A stretch of DNA of 32,432 nucleotides. It comes from a virus. Shown piece after piece: positions 2,621-29,092 of this stretch. Within the stretch, counting starts at the first letter, position 1; every line of letters starts with the position of its first letter. Both the position numbers and the translations under genes were made by a program. The notes beneath the pieces were generated by a model. It searched no databases. It worked only from the letters and a program-made list of their open reading frames with translations, and was not told where the DNA came from. The DNA is taken from positions 1-32,432 of the IMG/VR virus record IMGVR_UViG_3300046169_000041. One strand, 5' to 3'.

Positions 2621-2869
2621 ATGCAATTCAAAGACATAGATTTCCAGTCAGCGTTTACAAACCTGACGGACCAAGAACAACACATACTAGAGATGAGGTT
2701 TGGTCTTAATGGTAACAAACAAGTTAGTTTGTACCAGATAGGTCAACAATTAAACCTGACACGTGAACGTATACGACAGATAGAAGCTAAAGCACTACGT
2801 AAACTACGTAGACCTGATGCAGTCAGATCGTTACTTAAAATGTCAGATCAAGAAATAGAAGAAGGGTGA
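2621..2869 (+). CDS. sigma-70 region 4 (sigma4-like) protein, stand-alone
   Basis: The 82-aa product is little more than sigma-70 region 4. Residues 15-28 match the start of region 4 (LTDQEQHILEMRFG), and residues 38-64 carry the helix-turn-helix with the highly conserved RERIRQIEAKALRKLR pattern that in bacterial sigma factors contacts the -35 element and the RNA polymerase beta flap. Regions 1-3 are missing. Such a protein could recruit or redirect host RNA polymerase, compete with host sigma, or act as a plain DNA-binding regulator; these options are inference. A terminator-like hairpin precedes the gene and the ubiquitin-like module follows. The region-4 assignment is firm; the mode of action is not. 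Confidence 0.85.
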   Translation: MQFKDIDFQSAFTNLTDQEQHILEMRFGLNGNKQVSLYQIGQQLNLTRERIRQIEAKALRKLRRPDAVRSLLKMSDQEIEEG

Positions 2870-3027
2870 GACCCATAGGACCCCACCCTCTTCTAATGAA
2901 CAACATATGATAACAATACAACCAAGATAATCGGCTATGTTTGCAATAAATCATTTACAACATCATATGTCAATCATAGAGAGGTAGATTTTGGTCATTA
3001 TGGCCATTGAACAACAATATATATATC

Positions 3028-3261
3028 ATGGAAAGTACACATACACTAACTATTCGCTACGGTCTTACAAACAGTATCACACGTAGCTTTTCTACAGACA
3101 CTAGAGTATCAGATATCTTATCAGATACTTCAGTTCTTGCAGCCCTGTCTGCACCAGAGTCAGTATCTGCCGTATCCAACGGTCAGACACTTGGTCGTGA
3201 CATGCTTATCGGCAACTACGACACCATTACTCTTGAGCAACAAGCATCAAGCAAAGCCTAA
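3028..3261 (+). CDS. ubiquitin-like (beta-grasp) protein, 77 aa
   Basis: The predicted order is strand (THTLTIRYG), strand (TRSFSTDTRV), helix (VSDILSDTSVLAALSA), strand (VSAVSNGQ), turn, strand (DTITLEQQ), which fits a beta-grasp/ubiquitin-like fold of the usual size (about 75 aa). The tail is flexible and ends SSKA, not Gly-Gly. The assignment rests heavily on context: the next genes encode E2-like, E1-like and JAB proteins, the partners of a Ubl in PRTRC and related bacterial modules. ATG at 3028 was preferred to an in-frame TTG at 3007. There is no Shine-Dalgarno site; an AT-rich run precedes the start. A terminator follows 33 nt after the stop. The alternative is an unrelated small beta protein. 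Confidence 0.6.
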   Translation: MESTHTLTIRYGLTNSITRSFSTDTRVSDILSDTSVLAALSAPESVSAVSNGQTLGRDMLIGNYDTITLEQQASSKA

Positions 3262-3293
3262 TTTCTACAAGACGTAGAGATTAGTATTGTATC

Positions 3294-3330
3294 GGTCGGC
3301 ACACATACCAGTGTGCCGGCCTTATTTTTT
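3294..3330 (+). terminator. rho-independent terminator between the Ubl and E2-like genes
   Basis: GGTCGGCACAC (3294-3304) pairs with GTGTGCCGGCC (3311-3321), 11 bp including one T-G wobble, with a 6-nt loop and a T-rich tail TTATTTTTT (3322-3330). The E2-like gene starts 6 nt later, so readthrough or a second promoter would be needed for the enzymes. Confidence 0.85.
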
Positions 3331-3336
3331 ACACAT

Positions 3337-3591
3337 ATGGAAAACACAATTACAGAAGAAATTATACTACAACCTGACGGTAAGTTCTACAAGCGCAAAG
3401 CAGTTACTACGTATCTGATGTCGCAAGAGGAAGCTATCCAGAAGGTCAAGGCTAAGCCTATCTATCAAGTATGTCCAATACCTTTCACTGAAGAAGGTAA
3501 CACATTCTTTTCATCTTATGCTGGGGACGACACACATGCGTTTTACTACACCACCGAGATTGGTCAGTACCCATTCCAGGTGCACACCTAG
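3337..3591 (+). CDS. E2-like protein, N-terminal part (frame-broken gene)
   Basis: The 84-aa frame from the ATG at 3337 begins MENTITEEIILQPDGKFYKR and stops at TAG 3589-3591. The reading appears to continue in another frame. The plus frame two positions over is open from 3501, and from about 3570 it reads PIPGAHLEPLEDSEGNTKY, joining smoothly into the E2-like protein at 3627. Adding one C to the CCC at 3570-3572 would fuse the two into about 265 aa, close to the size of PRTRC protein B. No catalytic residue is in this part. No obvious slippery heptamer was found at the junction, so an indel (sequence error or mutation) is more likely than programmed shifting. It could also be a separate small gene. 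Confidence 0.6.
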   Translation: MENTITEEIILQPDGKFYKRKAVTTYLMSQEEAIQKVKAKPIYQVCPIPFTEEGNTFFSSYAGDDTHAFYYTTEIGQYPFQVHT

Positions 3592-3626
3592 AACCACTGG
3601 AAGATTCAGAGGGTAATACAAAGTAC

Positions 3627-4133
3627 TTGATCTGTCCAGCAAATGCAGCGTTACCTGAGCAAGGTGGCATACGTAACAACCAACTAGAACAAGTACCTGC
3701 TTATCAACCAAACTCTGACGAACGTCTATTTATTACTAACCGGTATACATATGACGATCGTGAGATTATAGCAGACGAGCCTACGTTGTTCTTGTACGAT
3801 GCTGACACAGAAAAATCATACTCACTTAACTTACCGAACATCTTTGACGGTGGTCGTATTTGTACAGGTAACAGTATACCACGTAGCATTACTGGTTATG
3901 CACCACAATCTCTTGGGTTTCACATAGCACGTATACAACATATCATGACGTCGCTTGCAAACAACGACCTACGTTCACGAGATCTAGAGTACAAACACTT
4001 GCACTTCGACATAGTGGGTAAGCATCTCAATCCTGTTAAACCAAAAGACGGCAGTAAATCATTCTTCCAAGAAATTACTAACGAACAAGTATTATTGTTC
4101 ACAACCTGGCTAAACAATGGACAAGCTATATAG
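3627..4133 (+). CDS. E2-like ubiquitin-conjugating protein (PRTRC-B/Prok-E2-type), C-terminal part
   Basis: The key segment is LNLPNIFDGGRICTGNS (residues 67-83, counting from TTG 3627). An N-x-x-x-G-G-R-I-C-x-G pattern like this marks the active-site Cys of the prokaryotic E2-like proteins of PRTRC modules (Cys79, codon at 3861). The E2 would carry the Ubl from E1 to a target. TTG 3627 is probably not the true start: the same frame is open back to 3501 and seems to be the continuation of the gene at 3337, broken by one base. Its end overlaps the next gene by 17 nt, so translation is likely coupled. The E2 call comes from one motif plus neighbours; the rest of the sequence is divergent. Confidence 0.55.
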   Translation: MICPANAALPEQGGIRNNQLEQVPAYQPNSDERLFITNRYTYDDREIIADEPTLFLYDADTEKSYSLNLPNIFDGGRICTGNSIPRSITGYAPQSLGFHIARIQHIMTSLANNDLRSRDLEYKHLHFDIVGKHLNPVKPKDGSKSFFQEITNEQVLLFTTWLNNGQAI

Positions 4134-4458
4134 TAATCTAAGCAACTGCGAACTAGCAGCCGGCAACAGCAATGTTAGCGCATACTTTGAACGCGAACAC
4201 ATGAACGATGGACTAACATACCATCTAGCTGATCGTATCAAACGTACCGAGGAAATGCGTACTGACTCGTACAAAATTGAGTGGCACGACACTGGTCTAA
4301 CTCCACAAGATATACGTATCTTACAAAAGATAATATGTAAACAATATCCAGACTCTGGTCGTAAACGTGGTGCTATCCTCAGATACATCAAACACTTCAA
4401 GAAAGAATCTGACCACACTGGTCACAAATTATACCAAATATGTCAAAACCAAAACTAA
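4117..4458 (+). CDS. hypothetical protein inside the Ubl module (113 aa)
   Basis: A 113-aa, basic, probably helical protein with no membrane segment. It overlaps the E2-like gene by 17 nt and the E1-like gene by 19 nt, so it is embedded in the operon and likely made together with them. Two Cys residues (Cys11 and Cys89) and a C-terminal basic helix (RKRGAILRYIKHFKKE, about 82-97) are visible, but no known motif. PRTRC operons also hold small proteins of unknown function; a match to one of these cannot be judged from sequence alone. It may be a conjugation target adaptor or a subunit of the complex; this is speculation. Confidence 0.65.
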   Translation: MDKLYSNLSNCELAAGNSNVSAYFEREHMNDGLTYHLADRIKRTEEMRTDSYKIEWHDTGLTPQDIRILQKIICKQYPDSGRKRGAILRYIKHFKKESDHTGHKLYQICQNQN

Positions 4459-5162
4459 ATGCACTAATCATCGGTGCTGGTGGTGTTACATCGTACATGC
4501 TACCTGCACTCAAGAACAGCTTCGACCTGGAAGCTAACATCATTGACGGTGACAAACTAGAGAAAAAGAATCTAGACCGTCAATTGTTTCGTACCAATAT
4601 GGTTGGCGAATACAAAGCCAAAGCATTGATGCGTCAATACAACTTTAGACAAAAAGATGGTCAAGCTATCTGTCAATACTTTGACAAAGGTATGCTTGAG
4701 ACACCTTACAAAATATTCTTTTCCCAAGCTGATGTGTACATATGTGCAGTCGACAACCATCCAGCTCGCAAAGCAATCATCGAGACAGCAGTGAGATATC
4801 GTAAGCCTGTCGTGGTGTGCGCCAACGAGTACCATACTAGTCAAGCATTCATATTTGACCCATCACTTGCACCTACACAGTGTCAAACATATCATCCGTT
4901 TGAACGCTATCCTGAAATCAAGACTGACAAGTCTGGTAGTCCTATCAGCTGTCAGGGCGAAGCACTAGAATCTGACCCACAACTTGCTATTGCCAATCAA
5001 ATGGCTGCAACCTTTGGTAACTATCTAGTGTGGTCTTGGTTCGGTATGCCACACAAAGCTGATATGATTGACTACAAACCTGTAGAGTTTCAATCAACGT
5101 TCAGTAAAATGCAAACTAAAACAATGGAGGACTTTAAATATGTCGCAGAAGTACGTAGTTAA
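4440..5162 (+). CDS. ThiF/E1-like Ubl-activating enzyme (PRTRC ThiF type)
   Basis: The 240-aa product has the E1/ThiF Rossmann fold: glycine-rich loop GAGGVTS (12-18), D-x-D..E..NLDRQ (36-48, with the conserved Arg47), and ICAVDN with the Mg-ATP Asp105. The C-terminal part ISCQGEALESD (169-179) followed by ANQMAA and a Trp-rich helix matches the SC-x-x-EAL pattern of PRTRC ThiF-family proteins; Cys171 is the candidate thioester Cys. The enzyme would adenylate the Ubl C-terminus with ATP and pass it to the E2-like protein. It is short for an E1, as in PRTRC. The gene overlaps both neighbours (19 and 23 nt). The ThiF call is firm, the PRTRC subtype likely. Confidence 0.85.
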   Translation: MSKPKLNALIIGAGGVTSYMLPALKNSFDLEANIIDGDKLEKKNLDRQLFRTNMVGEYKAKALMRQYNFRQKDGQAICQYFDKGMLETPYKIFFSQADVYICAVDNHPARKAIIETAVRYRKPVVVCANEYHTSQAFIFDPSLAPTQCQTYHPFERYPEIKTDKSGSPISCQGEALESDPQLAIANQMAATFGNYLVWSWFGMPHKADMIDYKPVEFQSTFSKMQTKTMEDFKYVAEVRS

Positions 5163-6180
5163 CGATAACAAAGTATACCAGGTAAACGACAATAAGTTGT
5201 TTACTACATACAGCGAAGTAGAAGTACCTGAGCAAGAAGTCGTACCTGTGTGGAAGGGTGCTAAAATACCACTTAACATGTGGCATAACATTGTTAAGTT
5301 CTGCAAACATTCGTACGATGAACTTAAATCAGAAACACTGATCTACTTGTTCTATGACGAAGACGCAGAACAGCCGTGGTCTTGGTGGGTACCACCACAA
5401 TCTACAGCTGGTATGACTGTCAAGTCTGACCCTGATCATCCTGACTATGCAGTACAACGTGCACAATATCCTGACACTATGTTTGGTACTGTACACCATC
5501 ACTGTGCTACATCAGCGTTTCAGTCAGGTACTGACGAAGCTGACGAGACACAGCGCGAAGGCTTACACTTTACTGTCGGCAATCTTAACAAAGACAACGA
5601 CTTTGATGTACACTTTCGTATGACAATTGGCGACAACCATTGTGAAATTGATGCACACGAGTACATTGAAATGGAAGTAGATCCATTCAAGCGTAACACA
5701 CGTGTACCAAAAGCTACACGTAATCACATACGTACTGAACTACACAAAGTTGACATTAAAAACATCAACAGTGACATGCCAGACTTCACAGCAGAAATGG
5801 CTAACGTAAGTAAAACATACGGCAGCAAGAAAAAACAACCTGCACTAGGTAGTTGGTATGACGAACCTTATTATTATACGTCAAAAAAAAACGAGGACGC
5901 ACTGGATATAACTCAAAGAGATATAGCAGATGAATTTGTTAATGCTATACTACTAGACCCTAAATATGAACAAATACTTACTAACTACTATCGCTATCGA
6001 ACTGATAAGAACAAGCTTTCGTTATTTACAGCAGGAGCTGTATTCGATACGGACGTCGCAGAAGACCTATCAGAACTCTTCCACGACTACCAATACCAAC
6101 GAGACAAACCCAACGACTACCAGTACGCTGAAGAACAGGTTAAAGACATTTTTGGCAGAACAAAAGTCAAACGGACTTGA
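5140..6180 (+). CDS. JAB/JAMM (MPN) metalloprotease, Ubl-processing or deconjugating
   Basis: The zinc motif H-x-H-x7-S-x-x-D is present exactly: His119, His121, Ser129, Asp132, with Glu65 in a beta-like stretch (SETLIYLFY) as the upstream acid. Such enzymes cut at the Ubl C-terminus, to mature it or release it from targets. The gene has one of the few clear Shine-Dalgarno sites (GGAGG, upstream of the ATG at 5140) and overlaps the E1 gene by 23 nt. The region beyond residue 200 is extra compared with a minimal JAB domain (PRTRC protein A is about 200 aa) and is unrecognised. An A9 run (5883-5891) lies in it. The end looks shifted: removing one T from TTTTT (6149-6153) would replace the last residues with a natural-looking tail ending at 6268. 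Confidence 0.8.
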   Translation: MSQKYVVNDNKVYQVNDNKLFTTYSEVEVPEQEVVPVWKGAKIPLNMWHNIVKFCKHSYDELKSETLIYLFYDEDAEQPWSWWVPPQSTAGMTVKSDPDHPDYAVQRAQYPDTMFGTVHHHCATSAFQSGTDEADETQREGLHFTVGNLNKDNDFDVHFRMTIGDNHCEIDAHEYIEMEVDPFKRNTRVPKATRNHIRTELHKVDIKNINSDMPDFTAEMANVSKTYGSKKKQPALGSWYDEPYYYTSKKNEDALDITQRDIADEFVNAILLDPKYEQILTNYYRYRTDKNKLSLFTAGAVFDTDVAEDLSELFHDYQYQRDKPNDYQYAEEQVKDIFGRTKVKRT

Positions 6181-6218
6181 CTTCTCACAAAACGACCTTA
6201 TATACGGACTCAACAACT

Positions 6219-6626
6219 ATGAGAACGGAGAAGGATTTCAACCAATGGATAAGGAGACAACTATATGAAACAACTAATGGTAACTGCGTTGTACAACGCA
6301 TTGAAAATACTACGTCAAACGGTGTGCCTGACATTATGGCTATTACACCAGACCATGTATTTCTTATTGAAAGTAAATTTGAAACTGTTAAGGTTCGTCC
6401 GGAACAAGCAGCATTCCAAATTAAAGTTAACGAAACCACAGCAGGACTCGACCATCCGTGTATATGCGTCACCCTCACTGGATATCCAAAGACTAAGAGA
6501 TTGGTTGTAAACGTATTTGATAGATCAGCAGTTACAACTACTGGCATCAAATGTAAACACCAACTAGAGTTTACTCTTGATAATGAAGGCTTTAAAGAAT
6601 TTTATAATTACTTTCCTCGAACCTAA
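6219..6626 (+). CDS. VRR-NUC domain nuclease
   Basis: The 135-aa product carries the VRR-NUC core: NGVPDIMAI (G-x-PD with the metal-binding Asp), then FLIESKFETVKVRPEQAAF, the E-x-K pair and the downstream Gln of this PD-(D/E)xK family. These enzymes cut branched or flap DNA and in phages often serve as Holliday-junction-type nucleases in recombination or packaging. The length (about 135 aa) is typical of phage stand-alone versions. ATG 6219 was preferred over TTG 6177, because residues between them look out of frame. It lies between the JAB gene and DNA polymerase, and starts the replication/recombination part of the plus-strand cluster. Confidence 0.8.
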   Translation: MRTEKDFNQWIRRQLYETTNGNCVVQRIENTTSNGVPDIMAITPDHVFLIESKFETVKVRPEQAAFQIKVNETTAGLDHPCICVTLTGYPKTKRLVVNVFDRSAVTTTGIKCKHQLEFTLDNEGFKEFYNYFPRT

Positions 6627-6789
6627 TTACAGGTCAATCAGAAAACGTGGTTACTCCTACTACCGTGGTTAGCAAAAAGTAGGACTAGACGATGATCCCA
6701 AGCGTCTGATCAAGGCCTATGGCCTAGCATCCACCAAGCAACTCATCCATTCTAGATACCCTGGTCAGCAATGACCAGCCAATTTATAT
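6627..6789 (+). other. structured intergenic region, candidate RNA or regulatory element
   Basis: This 163-bp gap has no ORF but several inverted repeats: TCCTAC/GTAGGA (6655-6660 with 6679-6684), AGACG/CGTCT (6687-6691 with 6703-6707), AGGCC/GGCCT with TAT loop (6713-6725), and CTGGTCA/TGACCAG with a GCAA tetraloop (6761-6778). A direct repeat CGTGGTTA occurs at 6646 and 6664. GNRA loops are typical of folded RNA. There is no T-tract after the last hairpin, so it is not a simple terminator. It is not a tRNA (no T-arm). Confidence 0.45.
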
Positions 6790-7032
6790 ATGACAAAAAT
6801 AGATCCAACATACGAATCAAGCAACAGTGGTAAAGAATTTTACGAAGCCATTGATAAAAAAGCTAAAGACATACTAAAGAATGACCCATACTTCCAGTAT
6901 AGAGAAGCTGTAAAGAAAGCACAGCAGTCAGGTCTAATAAGACAAAAGACTACTGAAGAGATACACAATGACTTGAAAAAGAAACGTTGGATAAAGATTA
7001 ATAGAGAAATTAAGAAAAACGAAGAAGAATAA
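6790..7032 (+). CDS. small charged hypothetical protein (80 aa)
   Basis: An 80-aa, highly charged helical protein rich in Lys and Glu (for example EEIHNDLKKKRWIKINREI in the second half), with no Cys or membrane segment. The family is not recognised. Its TAA overlaps the ATG of DNA polymerase by one base (TAATG), so translation is probably coupled and it may be a polymerase-associated or regulatory protein; this is inference. The start lies after an AT-rich stretch (TTTATATATG) without a Shine-Dalgarno site. Confidence 0.65.
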   Translation: MTKIDPTYESSNSGKEFYEAIDKKAKDILKNDPYFQYREAVKKAQQSGLIRQKTTEEIHNDLKKKRWIKINREIKKNEEE

Positions 7033-8858
7033 TGCAACAACCTTTATTTGCACCAGAAGCAACTTGGCGACCTCCAAATATTTTACCTGAGTTAGATACT
7101 GTTATATCAATTGACTTAGAAACTTGTGACCCTAACTTAAAACGTAGTGGTCCTGGTTATAAACGAAAGGATGGCAAAGTCATAGGTATTGCAATAGCTG
7201 ACAAACACCATACTTTATATTTACCATTTGACCACTTAGGTGGTGACAACCTGGACAAGGGTATAATTGTATCATATGTAAAAAATGCGTTAAGCAGATG
7301 CAGTGAAGTCATTATGGCTAATGCATCGTATGACCTTGGCTGGCTTGAGACTCTAGGGGTAGAAGTCTCATGTCCAGTTAGGGACATACAAATAGCAGAA
7401 GCATTGATTGATGAAGAATGTTTTTCTTACTCGTTAAATAATCTAGCTAAAAAATACTTAAACTTAAATAAAGATGAAGAAGGTTTACGTGAAGCAGCAG
7501 ACGCATTTGAAGTTAATGCTAAAGGAGAAATGTGGAAGCTACCTGCAAGATATGTAGGTAAGTATGCTGAAGCTGACGCTAGATTAACATATGACATATA
7601 CCAATATCAAATACCTATACTTAAAGAGGAAGACCTATGGAAAGTATGGGAACTAGAAACAGAGCTTATACCGGTGCTACTACACATGACAATGAAAGGT
7701 GTACCTGTTAACTTAGATGCTGCAGAAGTACTTAACAAGCAACTTAAACAACGTGAAGCTAACTTACGTAAACAGTTTGGTACGCTAGACATATGGTCGC
7801 CACCTAAACTAGCAAAACATTGTGAGAGCTTGGGACTAATAGTGCCTCGTACAGAAAAAGGTAATCCATCTGTATCTAAAGAATTTTTACAAACATGTGA
7901 ACACCCAGAAGTAAAACTCATATATGAAGCAAGAATTGTCAACAGACTTAGAAAAGTATTTATACAAGATATCATCTTACATCAAAATTACAAAGGTCGG
8001 ATACACGCCGATTTTAAACAAACCGCTAGTGATAGTGGGGGAACCAGATCAGGAAGATTATCATCAGCTAATCCGAATATGCAACAAGTACCCAAACGTA
8101 GTGACATTGGAAAAGCTATTCGACAACTATACATCGCTGAACCTGGAAGCTTATGGTGCAAAGCTGACTATTCATCTCAAGAACCCAGACTCCAAGTCCA
8201 CTACGCTCTTCTTGGACAATTTGGCAGACCCCTTCCAGGCGCAACAGAAGCCTTAGATGCATTTACACGTGGTGAAAAACTATATACATTCTTTGAAAAA
8301 ACGACTGGTTTACCTTACGACACCTGCAAAATGCTTTGCCTTGGGATTTCGTATGGGATGGGCAACAAGAAAATGGCAAGGACGCTTGGCATATCAGATG
8401 AACTTTGCACGGATACAATGCGAAAATTTAATAAAGAAGCTCCGTTCTTAAAAGTATTGTTTGACAACTGTATGAACACAGCTAACCAACGTGGCTACAT
8501 CAAAACTATACTTGGTAGGAGAGCTCGTTTTGACTTTTGGATACCATCATTTAATGACCAACCTGTAAAAACACTAAAAATTGCAAAAGGAAGATACAAA
8601 GACAAACCGCTCTTCAGAGCCTTTACATCTAAAGCACTCAATAGACTTATCCAAGGTTCCGCTGCAGATCAAGCTAAGCAAGCAATGGTTAACGCATATA
8701 AAGCTGGATTTGACATGAGACTACCAGTGCACGATGAGATTAATGCTATGGTTAGTAGCGAAGCAGAATCTAAACAACTAGCAACAATTATGGAAGAAGC
8801 AATACCACTCAAAGTACCAGTCGTAGCAGATATAGATTTAGGAGGTACATGGTGTTAA
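7032..8858 (+). CDS. polA: family-A DNA polymerase with 3'-5' exonuclease
   Basis: The 608-aa, T7-type enzyme would replicate phage DNA. The proofreading domain is at the N-terminus: ISIDLETCDP (Asp28, Glu30), ANASYDLGW (exo II) and YAEADARLTYD (exo III). The polymerase domain has motif A KADYSSQEPRL, motif B CKMLCLGISYGMGNKK (from Lys433) and motif C LPVHDEI. At the position matching E. coli Phe762 this enzyme has Leu437 (codon 8340-8342). In marine phage surveys Leu here has been linked to slower or temperate-type replication, whereas Phe and Tyr occur in many lytic phages. It lacks the 5'-3' exonuclease domain of bacterial Pol I, as usual in phages. Downstream genes follow closely, several of them overlapping. 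Confidence 0.95.
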   Translation: MQQPLFAPEATWRPPNILPELDTVISIDLETCDPNLKRSGPGYKRKDGKVIGIAIADKHHTLYLPFDHLGGDNLDKGIIVSYVKNALSRCSEVIMANASYDLGWLETLGVEVSCPVRDIQIAEALIDEECFSYSLNNLAKKYLNLNKDEEGLREAADAFEVNAKGEMWKLPARYVGKYAEADARLTYDIYQYQIPILKEEDLWKVWELETELIPVLLHMTMKGVPVNLDAAEVLNKQLKQREANLRKQFGTLDIWSPPKLAKHCESLGLIVPRTEKGNPSVSKEFLQTCEHPEVKLIYEARIVNRLRKVFIQDIILHQNYKGRIHADFKQTASDSGGTRSGRLSSANPNMQQVPKRSDIGKAIRQLYIAEPGSLWCKADYSSQEPRLQVHYALLGQFGRPLPGATEALDAFTRGEKLYTFFEKTTGLPYDTCKMLCLGISYGMGNKKMARTLGISDELCTDTMRKFNKEAPFLKVLFDNCMNTANQRGYIKTILGRRARFDFWIPSFNDQPVKTLKIAKGRYKDKPLFRAFTSKALNRLIQGSAADQAKQAMVNAYKAGFDMRLPVHDEINAMVSSEAESKQLATIMEEAIPLKVPVVADIDLGGTWC

Positions 8859-24193: not shown

Positions 24194-27100
24194 CTATTCC
24201 TGTATTTTAGCGTCTTCTGCACGTTCTAGTAAATCTTTTTGCATTTCAAGCATAGCTTCACCAGTTACAAAGCCTACAGCTTTCTCTAATACAGGGCCTA
24301 ATACTGGATATTGTTGACCAGTAAACGGCTCTAACGCTTTACCAAAGTCACCTTTTAACAAATCAATCGCTTGACCTGTAACTGGTGAAAACAGCTCAGA
24401 AGGTCCAAATACAGCTGCGTCTACACCCAATTCACCAATTGTTAACAACCCTGATTGTTTAAGTATTCGTAACAAATCAAACTTAGTCATGTTTAGTGGG
24501 TTAATAGGTTCTCTAAACTTAGCCAAATCTTTCATTATTGTAGTCATATAGGCAAATGCAATAGCCATACCTATATACGTTACTAAGTGAGCCATCTTAA
24601 ATCCGTTAGATTTGTTGTCTCCAGAATAACCATGTAAAAAACGTCTATACACAACACGTGACATACCAAGCATAAACGATGAATACTGTAACGCTGTACG
24701 TGCAGCTTCACCAGCCAATGTGCCGGATTCTAAACCTAAACGTGACAATGCTTGTGCTCCTACATCTGGCTCCATAACACCTTCTTTCATATACTGTAAA
24801 TAAAAAGATGATATTTTTTCTTGTAACCTAGGTCTAGTTACAGATGACGGTGCTAATCTTGGAATCCCATCAGGAGCAACTTCTACATACTTTACTAACG
24901 AGCCTAGTTCTTTTGGTGTAAATCCAAACTCTAATAATCGATCGACTAGCTTAGAACTTCCTTTACCTTGTATAGCTTCTGCCAATGAACTAGACAACAC
25001 ATCTATAAATATCTGTTGATGCGTAGCTGTTAAACGCTGAAGACCATTAACCTCAAACACAACTTGACCAGCAAAACCCATAAAACCGTCAACTTTTTCA
25101 CCAGTCACTACTTTTTGAGCAATTGTACGTAACAACAAATCAAATCCAGCTCCTTGTGATCTATACCAAGCAGCCATTTCTTTGTTCTTACCTCTAAACT
25201 GTGTATCAATAGCTTTTTTGTAGCTACTTACAAAAGTACTAAAATTAAAGTCAGCATCTAAATATTGTAAAGTCGCTATTGTAAGAGGCACATCAGATAA
25301 AGCTGACATACCAGAACCTGCTAAATATAGTACATTAGAACCTTGTCTTACGTTTTGAAAAAGTTTAGCCATATGCACATCTACAGGATTGTCTAACATT
25401 CCTGTAATTTGCTTTGCTGTCATATCAAATGTTTTATACCCAGGTGTTTTAGTCAACCCTTGAGTACGAGCAACATTCATCAACGAAGCATATGGGTCAT
25501 GCCCTAAGTTCTTTATAAGTGCAATCTTTTCTGAACGCCCACGTATTTGATCTAATAGCAAACGACCGTGGTTTTTAAAGTTACTAAACTTAACTAAAGC
25601 TTCTACTTGGTACTCTGGTTTGTAAGCAATTTTAGAGGTTTTACGTAACACACCAGCAATAGATTTATTAGCTGTGGCAACATCATCCATTGCATATTCA
25701 CCAGCTTTAATAGCTGTGTACATATTGTTTACAAAGTCACTTAAAACAAACTCTTTTATATTACCAGTTTTAGAATCTTCCATGATACCACCGTGACGTT
25801 TAAAAGTAGTATCAGCATCTAAAACTTTCATCATATAGTCGTAGAACACTTTTTTACCCATACTTTCTACTACTTCTCTGCTATATGTAACGCTATACCC
25901 AGTAAATGCATTGCTTTCACGGATGTTTACGCCAAGCTTACTTATAGCTGCTAGTTGACTTTTATTTACAGTTTTAACTAACTCAATATAGTCTTCAAAT
26001 TCTTTTATGCCTTTCATCCTGTCAACAACTGCATTGTCTCGAATGCTTTGCATAACATCCATATGAAAAGCTAATGAAGCTTGCTCTAAGTTTTCACCGT
26101 ACACTTTCTTTGCTTTTTGAGTTGAGAAATTCTTATTATAATATGTTGACATATACTTAGTTGGGTCTTCACCTAAGAACAACTCAAGCATATCGTTATC
26201 TACTACATACTCTACAAGAGGAATTTGGTCGTTAATAATTTGTGCATCAATACGGTTTTGCACTGACGGACCTCTTTGTACACCCTCACGTAAACTGCCG
26301 TCTAGTTCAGTCTTTAACTGTTTTAGTTTTTGTTTTTTAAGAGTAGTGCCACTTAGCTTACCAATAAGATTTTGCTCAACAGTTTTGTTATGAAGCAAAC
26401 GAAGAACCATTGCTCTATCTTCTTCTGCTAAATACTTAGCTATCTTACCTAACTTTTGACCAGGAGTTGCGTCTTGGTTTATTAATATAAAACCAATACG
26501 AGATAATGTTTCTGGTGGCGCACCAGCTTCTTTTAGCTCAGACAACGCTGATTTTACTCCTTCTATAGTTGTATCTTTACGAAGCGCTCTTGTTACAATA
26601 GCTTTACGAGATGCACTGCCTTGTAGGTTTAAAATAATACTGTCAACAACAGGTACGATATAACCTAACCCATTTTCCTCTAATGTAGTAATTACTTGAG
26701 CTATATGATCTTGTCTACCTTTTTCGCCTTTACTTTGTTTAGGTAGTTTAAGTAGCATAGGAACTAACGCTTCATCTCCAACAATATCAGCTATACGAGA
26801 TTCTAAATAAACTATTGGATCAGCTTGTTGTCTACCTAACTCTTTAGCTCTAGCTTCAAGACTTGGATTTTTATATGACGGCTGATAAGGTTTAGGCCCT
26901 TGTTTTGAGTCTGCTTTTAAATCTTTACTTTGTGCTATACCTTTTTTCAATTGAGCTAATTTAGTAGGCGAAGCACCTTCGTCTCTCATACGAGTAAGAA
27001 TGTCTTTTATTGTTGCAGCTACATTATCGGCATCTTTAAGGTTATCCATATCCTTAAAAAACTCTTTGCGATTTAATCGGAGTACTTCAACTGCTTTTTC

Positions 27101-29092
27101 AAAAGCTTTTTGGAGTATGTCCATAAGTCTTTTAAACAAATTAGGTTTGTCTTTTTTTAAACCATTTAAAAACTCAGGTCTAGTAAAGTACCACTCCATA
27201 AGAAGAGGTACTTCTTCAACTGCAGTCTTAGGTACTCTTGCTCTGTTACCATACGAGTACTGAGGATAAATAGCTTCAATCCAAGGAAATTTATCCAAAT
27301 CAAATACAAACTGTCCGTCTTCTTCGTAACCAATACGTTTAATTTCTTTTGCTAGTATCCCTTTTAGCTCAGGTCTTGAGTTTACATACTCTTGTAGTTC
27401 TAAATAATACTTTGGAGTTAAGTCCTGCATAATGTGCCCAAACTCGTGCAATATGGTAGATCCAGCTCTAGCACCTAACGCATAAGTAGGAGCGTTTCGT
27501 AGATCACCATCAAACATTGTATAAATATCAGCAATCTCAATACCTAACTTACCAAAAGTAACTTGACCTAATGGTCTCTTTCTACCTGCAATTCTTTCCC
27601 AAACAAAGTTTTCCATTGCTATATCGCCTTTAGGTAAACTTCTTACTGTTACAGGAACATGAGCTTTACCTAACAGTGCTTCACCTATAATATTAGTAAG
27701 CTCAACAACCATTTGTTTGTATTCTAAGTGATTGCCTTTAGCTAACCCTACTAACTCTCCAGATGTTTGCAGTTCTTTAACAGGGTCTGTTTTAGGACTT
27801 TTTGCTTCAGCTCCAAAATCTCTTGCAGAATACGATATCATACCAATATCAGGTATAACAGTACGCTCAGACACTATTTCAGCGTCTTCAGCAATACGTA
27901 ACCCATACTTGTCTTTTAAGTAAGTTATATCTTCTGGTGTAAGTTTAGTAAAATTACCTTCTGTTATAGCGTCTGCGAGACGACCAACATGTGATCTAAA
28001 ATCTTTTTCATTTTGTACTATCGAGCCATCTTTATTACGGTAGCTTAGTGCTAAGTCTTGTGTTATTGCACCTAATAGTGTGCCTACCTCTTGTTGGTGA
28101 AACACTGAAGCAAGATTTACAGCGTCTTCAGGTGTCAAATCTTTAGGGTTTACTTTACCTTCTGAAATTGCTTTAAGTCTTGGGTCATTTATTATTAATT
28201 TTCTAACGTGTTCATCACCGTAGTTTTTAAGAACTTGAGAGATTTCAATAACTTTTTCACCGCCATAGTTTGTCTCTCTAAGAGAAACTTCATCAGTAGA
28301 AAGATTTGGATTACGAAAATCTTTTATAGTTCCGTCCATTACATCTTTGTACTCTTTATAAGCGTTATATTGGTCTCTTATTTTAGCATTTCTTTTATAG
28401 TCTGACTTAAACTTAAGTGCTGATAAACCTCCTGCAAACAACACAGTCGACATTGCAGTGTGCTTAAAGTGATCCATTGTATAATCTATAACACCAACAT
28501 TATTTAACATATGAGAATACCCATACTCTAAACCTCCAGAAACTAGCATATAGTCACGGATATTTTTAGTTGTTGAATGCAAAGCTGATAAAACAGGCTT
28601 CCCTGCAGCAGCTGTTAACCTAGCTGAAGCTGCAGCACGACTAGCACCAAACACAGCACCTTTACCAAACGTAGCCCCTGATACAGCTACGTTTACAGGA
28701 TCTAAAAAACCTGTTACAAGACTAGTACCAAACTGAGATAAATCTCTTCGCACACCAGACTGCTGTTCATTTATCTCTCGCAACTGAGCTGCTTTTCTAA
28801 TTCGATACATTAACTGCTCAACTGTTTCATCAGCATCAAAGTCTAACCCAAGTTTAGGAGCATATGAACTATCGTATACATCTTGAGACACTTTCTGTCC
28901 TTCAGTGTAGTCTTTATTTATGTTTAGATTATACCAATCTACTGCAGTAGCTGTAGGCCCTAAAGCTATTGCATTTTGCATTGCTGCAAGGTTAGAACGT
29001 ACAAGACCAAAATCTGTAGATGAGTAACCTTGAGATACTTCGTCAATTGATTTTAGTCTTGCTAGTGAGTTAGTCGGTCTAGCGTCGTTCAT
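24194..29092 (-). CDS. large internal virion protein (gp16-like) with HEFGH metallopeptidase motif
   Basis: A 1632-aa protein, third in a run of three that matches T7 gp14-gp15-gp16 in order and rough size; gp16 forms part of the ejected channel for DNA entry. Residues 545-557 read GSTILHEFGHIMQ, with zinc-ligand His549 and His553 around Glu550 (HExxH), typical of metallopeptidases. T7 gp16 instead has a transglycosylase at its N-terminus. Near residues 140-250 there are hydrophobic, Ala/Gly-rich stretches, and near 1505-1530 a membrane-like segment (HLVTYIGMAIAFAYMTTI), compatible with membrane passage. A long helical middle (residues 700-1300) is typical of internal proteins. The ATG overlaps the upstream stop (TAATG). 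No shorter family match was recognised. Confidence 0.75.
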   Translation of the reverse strand: MNDARPTNSLARLKSIDEVSQGYSSTDFGLVRSNLAAMQNAIALGPTATAVDWYNLNINKDYTEGQKVSQDVYDSSYAPKLGLDFDADETVEQLMYRIRKAAQLREINEQQSGVRRDLSQFGTSLVTGFLDPVNVAVSGATFGKGAVFGASRAAASARLTAAAGKPVLSALHSTTKNIRDYMLVSGGLEYGYSHMLNNVGVIDYTMDHFKHTAMSTVLFAGGLSALKFKSDYKRNAKIRDQYNAYKEYKDVMDGTIKDFRNPNLSTDEVSLRETNYGGEKVIEISQVLKNYGDEHVRKLIINDPRLKAISEGKVNPKDLTPEDAVNLASVFHQQEVGTLLGAITQDLALSYRNKDGSIVQNEKDFRSHVGRLADAITEGNFTKLTPEDITYLKDKYGLRIAEDAEIVSERTVIPDIGMISYSARDFGAEAKSPKTDPVKELQTSGELVGLAKGNHLEYKQMVVELTNIIGEALLGKAHVPVTVRSLPKGDIAMENFVWERIAGRKRPLGQVTFGKLGIEIADIYTMFDGDLRNAPTYALGARAGSTILHEFGHIMQDLTPKYYLELQEYVNSRPELKGILAKEIKRIGYEEDGQFVFDLDKFPWIEAIYPQYSYGNRARVPKTAVEEVPLLMEWYFTRPEFLNGLKKDKPNLFKRLMDILQKAFEKAVEVLRLNRKEFFKDMDNLKDADNVAATIKDILTRMRDEGASPTKLAQLKKGIAQSKDLKADSKQGPKPYQPSYKNPSLEARAKELGRQQADPIVYLESRIADIVGDEALVPMLLKLPKQSKGEKGRQDHIAQVITTLEENGLGYIVPVVDSIILNLQGSASRKAIVTRALRKDTTIEGVKSALSELKEAGAPPETLSRIGFILINQDATPGQKLGKIAKYLAEEDRAMVLRLLHNKTVEQNLIGKLSGTTLKKQKLKQLKTELDGSLREGVQRGPSVQNRIDAQIINDQIPLVEYVVDNDMLELFLGEDPTKYMSTYYNKNFSTQKAKKVYGENLEQASLAFHMDVMQSIRDNAVVDRMKGIKEFEDYIELVKTVNKSQLAAISKLGVNIRESNAFTGYSVTYSREVVESMGKKVFYDYMMKVLDADTTFKRHGGIMEDSKTGNIKEFVLSDFVNNMYTAIKAGEYAMDDVATANKSIAGVLRKTSKIAYKPEYQVEALVKFSNFKNHGRLLLDQIRGRSEKIALIKNLGHDPYASLMNVARTQGLTKTPGYKTFDMTAKQITGMLDNPVDVHMAKLFQNVRQGSNVLYLAGSGMSALSDVPLTIATLQYLDADFNFSTFVSSYKKAIDTQFRGKNKEMAAWYRSQGAGFDLLLRTIAQKVVTGEKVDGFMGFAGQVVFEVNGLQRLTATHQQIFIDVLSSSLAEAIQGKGSSKLVDRLLEFGFTPKELGSLVKYVEVAPDGIPRLAPSSVTRPRLQEKISSFYLQYMKEGVMEPDVGAQALSRLGLESGTLAGEAARTALQYSSFMLGMSRVVYRRFLHGYSGDNKSNGFKMAHLVTYIGMAIAFAYMTTIMKDLAKFREPINPLNMTKFDLLRILKQSGLLTIGELGVDAAVFGPSELFSPVTGQAIDLLKGDFGKALEPFTGQQYPVLGPVLEKAVGFVTGEAMLEMQKDLLERAEDAKIQE

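Follow-up and report, generated by a model that had tools for sequence, protein, structure and literature searches.

What does a set of genes resembling a ubiquitin-conjugation pathway do among the replication genes of a phage? This question is raised by a 32,432-base viral record (IMGVR_UViG_3300046169_000041), analysed at its full length and referred to here as the window. On its plus strand, from position 2621 to 8858, follow genes for a sigma-70 region-4 protein, a ubiquitin-like modifier (Ubl), an E2-like protein, a protein of no recognised family (X), an E1-like enzyme, a JAB protease, a VRR-NUC-like nuclease and a family-A DNA polymerase (PolA). From its sequence we favour, on balance, the reading that the five genes from Ubl to JAB, hereafter the module, encode a reversible Ubl-conjugation cascade that is PRTRC-like (class 6d) and set within the replication gene block, with its target open between replication proteins and others. 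A first-pass annotation of the window had given the order of the five module genes correctly, and the overlaps of 17-23 nucleotides (nt) that it reported from E2 to JAB are indeed 17 nt for E2/X, 19 nt for X/E1 and 23 nt for E1/JAB. The E1, E2 and JAMM motifs that it had pointed out each occur once in the six frames, against a shuffling expectation of at most 0.02 each.

Synteny of the module with PolA

PolA (7032-8858; Pfam DNA_pol_A 9.1e-54) was the anchor of the synteny test. Searches with the Ubl yielded 14 loci and searches with PolA 80, and in all 14 Ubl loci but one (L029) the gene set is the same as far as the contig extends. Distinct contigs were counted if their PolA was at least 70% identical and was preceded by 5.6 kb or more of DNA. 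In 20 of 20 such contigs Ubl, E2, X, E1, JAB and the VRR-NUC-like gene lie upstream of PolA in the same order and on the same strand; neither of the two outgroup contigs, whose PolA is 38% identical, has any of these genes. Taken gene by gene, and given enough DNA, presence was complete for Ubl (16/16), E2 (18/18), X (24/24), E1 (27/27), JAB (32/32) and VRR (40/40).

The catalytic residues of E1, E2 and JAB show no variation across 37 to 50 distinct sequences, and the nonsynonymous rate (dN) is well under the synonymous rate (dS) in all five module genes. Given the synteny with PolA, the invariant catalytic residues and dN below dS, these comparisons indicate that the module is under selection and is inherited together with the polymerase. 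By the same comparisons, it is a core and not an accessory feature of this phage lineage, and this core status is what is new here.

The modifier and its candidate enzymes

The E1-like adenylating enzyme (4440-5162; 240 residues, catalytic Cys171) matches Pfam ThiF at 1.3e-15 and, over residues 5-201, the NCBIfam family PRTRC_ThiF (TIGR03736) at E 3.2e-13, with a score of 49.6 bits that lies under the cut-off of 144.75. With seven plasmid PRTRC ThiF sequences, hhalign aligned it over 195 columns at Prob 99.5, a stretch that takes in the catalytic SC...AL block. When its profile was compared with PDB sequences, the SUMO E1 subunit SAE2 (1.7e-5), the NEDD8 E1 (1.9e-5) and Citrobacter BubCD (2.9e-5) came before MccB. 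A match to an Acinetobacter 'MoeB' was discarded, as that gene sits among bacterial metabolic genes.

The JAB/JAMM protease (5140-6180 in the window, with a native end near 6268) matches PRTRC_A at 2.7e-5, its 23.8 bits falling under the TIGR03735 cut-off of 101.8. Conversely, the PRTRC_A profile retrieved 60 JAB open reading frames (ORFs) at E<0.01 and matched nothing else. The glutamate and the HxHx7SxxD set (E65, H119, H121, S129 and D132 in the numbering of the related contig L001) are invariant in 50/50 distinct sequences. By tblastn, neither JAB nor the E2-like protein had a match, and the Ubl no meaningful one, among isolated phages.

The Ubl (3028-3261; 77 residues) is predicted to have the beta-grasp fold of the ubiquitin superfamily, as the first-pass annotation had proposed. 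Its confident AlphaFold2 model, with a predicted local distance difference test (pLDDT) score of 88, aligned in structure searches with ubiquitin-, SUMO- and ISG15-like chains at Z up to 10.2, and Foldseek matched it to SUMO1 at E 7e-4; its profile gave nothing meaningful against PDB sequences. The C-terminal tail is Q-A-S-(S/C)-K-A in 32/32 distinct sequences (...QASSKA in the window). Since ASSKA resembles the ends of plasmid PRTRC_C proteins, for example RAVGTKG and RAAGAKG, the tail looks like the PRTRC_C motif with its final glycine replaced by alanine, a suggestion drawn from short strings. Between L001 (about 6588-6818) and L008 (5428-5658) the silent-site divergence of the Ubl gene is 0.13, next to 0.86 for E2 and 0.52 for X, which may reflect either local recombination or constraint at the nucleotide level.

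The E2-like protein (3337-4133) is of the Prok-E2_D/PRTRC_B kind. Its putative catalytic cysteine, Cys176 of the intact protein, lies within NIFDGGRICTG and is invariant in 37/37 distinct sequences. The single-sequence match to Pfam Prok-E2_D is weak (E 0.15, on a fragment); a PRTRC_B profile built here places the E2 family first among 4761 ORFs, at a best E of 2.9e-4. Aligned by hhalign to PRTRC_B together with a phage E2_D set, the family gave Prob 87 and a pairwise E of 4e-6 across the cysteine motif and a downstream N-x-D-L motif, and Prob 65 against gp248 of phage Arash alone. Its profile gave nothing meaningful against PDB sequences. The profile searches proposed by the first-pass annotation thus bore out the relations of E1, of JAB and, in the cysteine region, of E2, and left the Ubl to be assigned by its fold; its assignment of the four proteins and the PRTRC resemblance that it saw both stand.

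The remaining gene encodes X (4117-4458; 113 residues), found in the module of all relatives and ending in a GRKRGAILRYI motif that is invariant in the aligned members. No Pfam family is common to its members, and comparison with PRTRC E and F and with the extra proteins of the KLEB27-3, Cytobacillus, Arash and DAC15 modules returned nothing; X was found only in this phage lineage.

In the window itself, two of these genes have broken frames, which the first-pass annotation missed. It had recognised the E2-type motif, but it started that gene at a TTG at 3627 and numbered the cysteine as Cys79. Comparison with L001, a contig 96% identical in which E2 is a single ORF, shows that the true start is the ATG at 3337 and that one C is deleted at about 3577 (CATTCC-AGG in the window against CATTCCCAGG in L001), splitting the gene into the pieces 3337-3591 and the frame of 3627-4133. 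A programmed frameshift was rejected, given the additional C in L001 and the intact single ORF in 46 of 47 complete loci (some of them pieces of the same contig), the window being the sole exception. In JAB, where the annotated motif is present as described, a 1-nt insertion at about 6145 leads to a stop at 6180 and not onward in the frame 5966-6268, so that the C-terminal 45 or so residues fall in the wrong frame while the catalytic domain is intact; the frame is unbroken in L001-L005.

It is conceivable, if doubtful, that the module is decaying in this genome, the two frameshifts abolishing a function that the relatives keep, and such decay would be compatible with any reading of that function. 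The only two frameshifting indels relative to L001 among the genes compared fall in E2 and JAB, and every other complete E2 locus is intact, as decay in this one copy would predict. Set against this, two single-base indels are also expected from sequencing or assembly error, and the Ubl and E1 frames are whole.

Neighbouring genes and related systems

Both virion and replication genes are found in the window, and its layout is common to many phage contigs; it is therefore phage DNA with the module inside the replication block, in agreement with the first-pass annotation, which had also placed a sigma-like gene upstream and replication genes downstream. The former encodes a small sigma-70 region 4 protein (2621-2869; 82 residues; Pfam Sigma70_r4 1.7e-16, phrog_351 2.9e-17). 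A homologue stands upstream of the Ubl gene in only part of the relatives, and we regard it as a neighbour, at most a candidate member of the module. The VRR-NUC-like gene (6177-6626; phrog_93 endonuclease 6e-8; Pfam VRR_NUC 0.0047, below the cut-off) probably has its true ATG start at 6219, and its position between JAB and PolA is constant across relatives. On the 3' side of PolA are relatives of Pam3 gp33 and gp34, an AEP-type primase, UvrD- and SNF2-type helicases and a metallophosphoesterase. The virion genes lie on the opposite strand and include a relative of internal virion proteins. A 1632-residue protein at 24194-29092, which has relatives among virion structural proteins and internal virion proteins with endolysin domain (phrog_684 2.4e-26, phrog_342 2.2e-8), suggests a podovirus-like virion. 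At the nucleotide level, a search with 24 kb of the window matched no isolated phage. In a scan of bacterial genomes there was a single relative, a 19 kb contig of a Sneathiella metagenome-assembled genome (L107, NZ_NZMB01000001.1) that holds the whole module and PolA. Since its gene order is that of the phage, it is probably a binned phage contig; it is a possible hint of a host and was not used as host evidence.

Systems of this general kind were predicted by Iyer, Burroughs and Aravind in 2006 (PMC1779556). Their class 6d combines a bacterial Ub-like protein, a JAB, an E1-like and an E2-like protein with a novel alpha-helical protein; several of its operons are on mobile elements, and its E2s have an absolutely conserved histidine C-terminal to the cysteine. 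Some Ubl families without a C-terminal glycine are noted in that work as well. Like class 6d, the phage module has separate Ubl, E2-like, E1-like and JAB genes and an extra protein in one operon, and its E2 has a conserved cysteine in a region that matches PRTRC_B/E2_D. In contrast, the phage E2 column that is likely equivalent to the conserved histidine is variable (N, A, S, R, W, V or T, in a stretch of weak alignment), and X is short, has its invariant C-terminal motif and showed no relation to the extra proteins that accompany other modules.

The plasmid PRTRC systems (NCBIfam TIGR03734-TIGR03738; for example Hydrogenophaga pPBL-H3_B2-1) are related at the profile level in E1, JAB and E2, and their PRTRC_C tails (VGTKG or AGAKG) resemble that of the phage Ubl. 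However, their order is ParB-E-C-F-B-A-ThiF where here it is Ubl-E2-X-E1-JAB, the phage scores are all under the curated cut-offs and the phage tail ends in alanine. The first-pass annotation had noted the lack of ParB, and a search at E 0.1 of the window and of six longer related records, which may be fragments, likewise gave no match to PRTRC ParB (TIGR03734). Because ParB was not found and the scores are under the curated cut-offs, the phage module is PRTRC-like and not PRTRC proper. In the Cytobacillus plasmid L015 (547-888), near Prok-E2_D, JAB-like and ThiF genes, a short unit stands in tandem duplicate, each copy ending in KAGTKG, which looks like a two-unit polyUbl.

Related genes also occur in isolated phages. 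Bacillus phage vB_BauM_KLEB27-3 encodes JAB, E2_D and ThiF proteins (gp194-196), and Bacteroides phage DAC15 a JAB and a ThiF. In Salmonella phage Arash (OQ632216.1, L016; 1519-4539, gp246-248), a PRTRC_A-like JAB is flanked by a ThiF-type E1 and a protein that is E2-like by its motif (N..GDGNMCVG), both of which carry the annotation 'structural protein'; Vibrio phages D69, D148 and D181 carry the E2 relative. These phages share with the window the adjacency of E1 and JAB, and in part Prok-E2_D, genes in a phage genome. They differ in being unrelated phages of larger genome size, with another gene order and other extra proteins, in which no sequence similarity to X was found. E2 seeds matched only 5 of 50,697 phage records. 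Searches of open-licence PMC papers turned up neither a publication on PRTRC-like modules encoded by phages nor a target or function for PRTRC-like Ubl systems. The bacterial Bil, Bub and CBASS Cap2/Cap3 systems follow the same E1-E2-JAB logic, and the nearest solved E1s include BubCD. The PADLOC models matched are of multi-domain E1-E2 proteins, whereas in the core region of the phage the proteins are separate and of the PRTRC kind.

Possible roles of the module

That the module is a conjugation cascade we consider likely, on the basis of the homology of E1 and JAB, the predicted fold of the Ubl, the conservation of catalytic residues and the synteny with PolA. First, E1 would adenylate the Ubl at its C-terminal carboxylate, which here belongs to an alanine, and then bind it as a thioester through Cys171. 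From there the Ubl would pass to the invariant Cys176 of the E2-like protein, which would hand it over to a lysine of the target, and JAB would remove the tag. X may select targets or assist E2. The target would most likely be a phage or host DNA-replication protein; given a cascade, we put the chances of a replication-linked role at about even. Related JAB and E1 genes stand beside dnaX and delta' in a Lysinibacillus plasmid, dnaN/dnaX in a Chroococcidiopsis plasmid and a uracil-DNA glycosylase gene in phage DAC15, a handful of examples with no statistic that support such a role without proving it. More tentatively, and at clearly longer odds, the cascade could be a SUMO-like core part of DNA replication, in which the phage tags its own or host replication proteins with an alanine-ending modifier and its own JAB removes the tag.

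Several findings weigh against a replication-linked cascade. The Ubl is without a sequence match in Pfam (Prok_Ub included), NCBIfam (TIGR03738 included) or PRTRC_C, whose profile misses it, and all 32 distinct sequences lack a C-terminal glycine and end in Lys-Ala, a point that the first-pass annotation had overlooked. Ubiquitin with a terminal alanine (G76A) is still activated by E1 and conjugated, and is removed poorly, so the terminal alanine leaves conjugation possible; the invariant, glycine-less tail is nevertheless a clear biochemical puzzle. The similarity of the E2-like protein to PRTRC_B is restricted to the cysteine region. When its predicted model (pLDDT 77) was compared with the PDB, no UBC chain was listed, only unrelated entries, the best of them CapZ at a Z of 5.6, under the noise level of the tool; hence the label 'E2-like' rests on the E2_D relation. 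The frameshifts in the window copy of E2 and JAB count here as well. Finally, synteny alone is no proof of a role in replication, as the neighbours may simply be an early gene block.

Such a block would also suit a module directed at the host. The first-pass annotation had suggested that it counters defence, tags host proteins or wards off other phages, for which we found nothing specific in support, the fixed site beside PolA fitting a core function better. In its most explicit form, the Ubl would be put, at an early stage of infection, on host proteins of defence, the nucleoid or transcription, or host Ubl tags such as those of Bil and CBASS Cap2 would be competed with or stripped. Bil is a bacterial Ubl cascade that acts in antiphage defence. 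The CBASS Ubl cascade likewise defends bacteria against phages (Jenson et al., 2023, PMC10097602). The phage E1 weakly resembles PADLOC models of E1-E2 defence systems (best 3.6e-9), and the early-type position of the block suits early action. However, anti-defence cargo is typically variable, whereas the module has a fixed site in 20/20 relatives; of the named families, JAB comes closest to PRTRC plasmid proteins and not to Bil or Cap2, and PRTRC plasmid proteins are also among the nearest to E1; and neither X nor the Ubl has a meaningful match to defence models. Given this fixed site beside PolA in every close relative, a core, perhaps replication-linked, role fits better than accessory anti-defence cargo, and we believe counter-defence or host takeover to be rather unlikely. 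Core status weighs against a typical accessory counter-defence gene; a counter-defence function needed by every member of the lineage is compatible with it.

A use without conjugation, in which E1 and Ubl serve sulfur transfer, or the Ubl is a non-covalent scaffold for replication proteins with the E2-like protein as its binding partner and the glycine-less tail as a docking peptide, would account for the invariance of that tail and for the lack of an E2 fold in the model, but it is improbable given catalytic residues in E2, E1 and JAB whose invariance is unexpected for scaffolds, a window in which rhodanese, desulfurase and thiamine or molybdopterin genes were not among the families found, and a terminal alanine that conjugation tolerates in ubiquitin.

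We therefore return to a Ubl-conjugation cascade within the replication block. As the module is fixed beside PolA in a genome that offers few possible targets, what such cascades modify becomes directly testable. The finding carries Ubl conjugation beyond bacterial defence and towards the core biology of phages, and it suggests that a lineage of uncultured phages relies on protein tagging in its basic life cycle.

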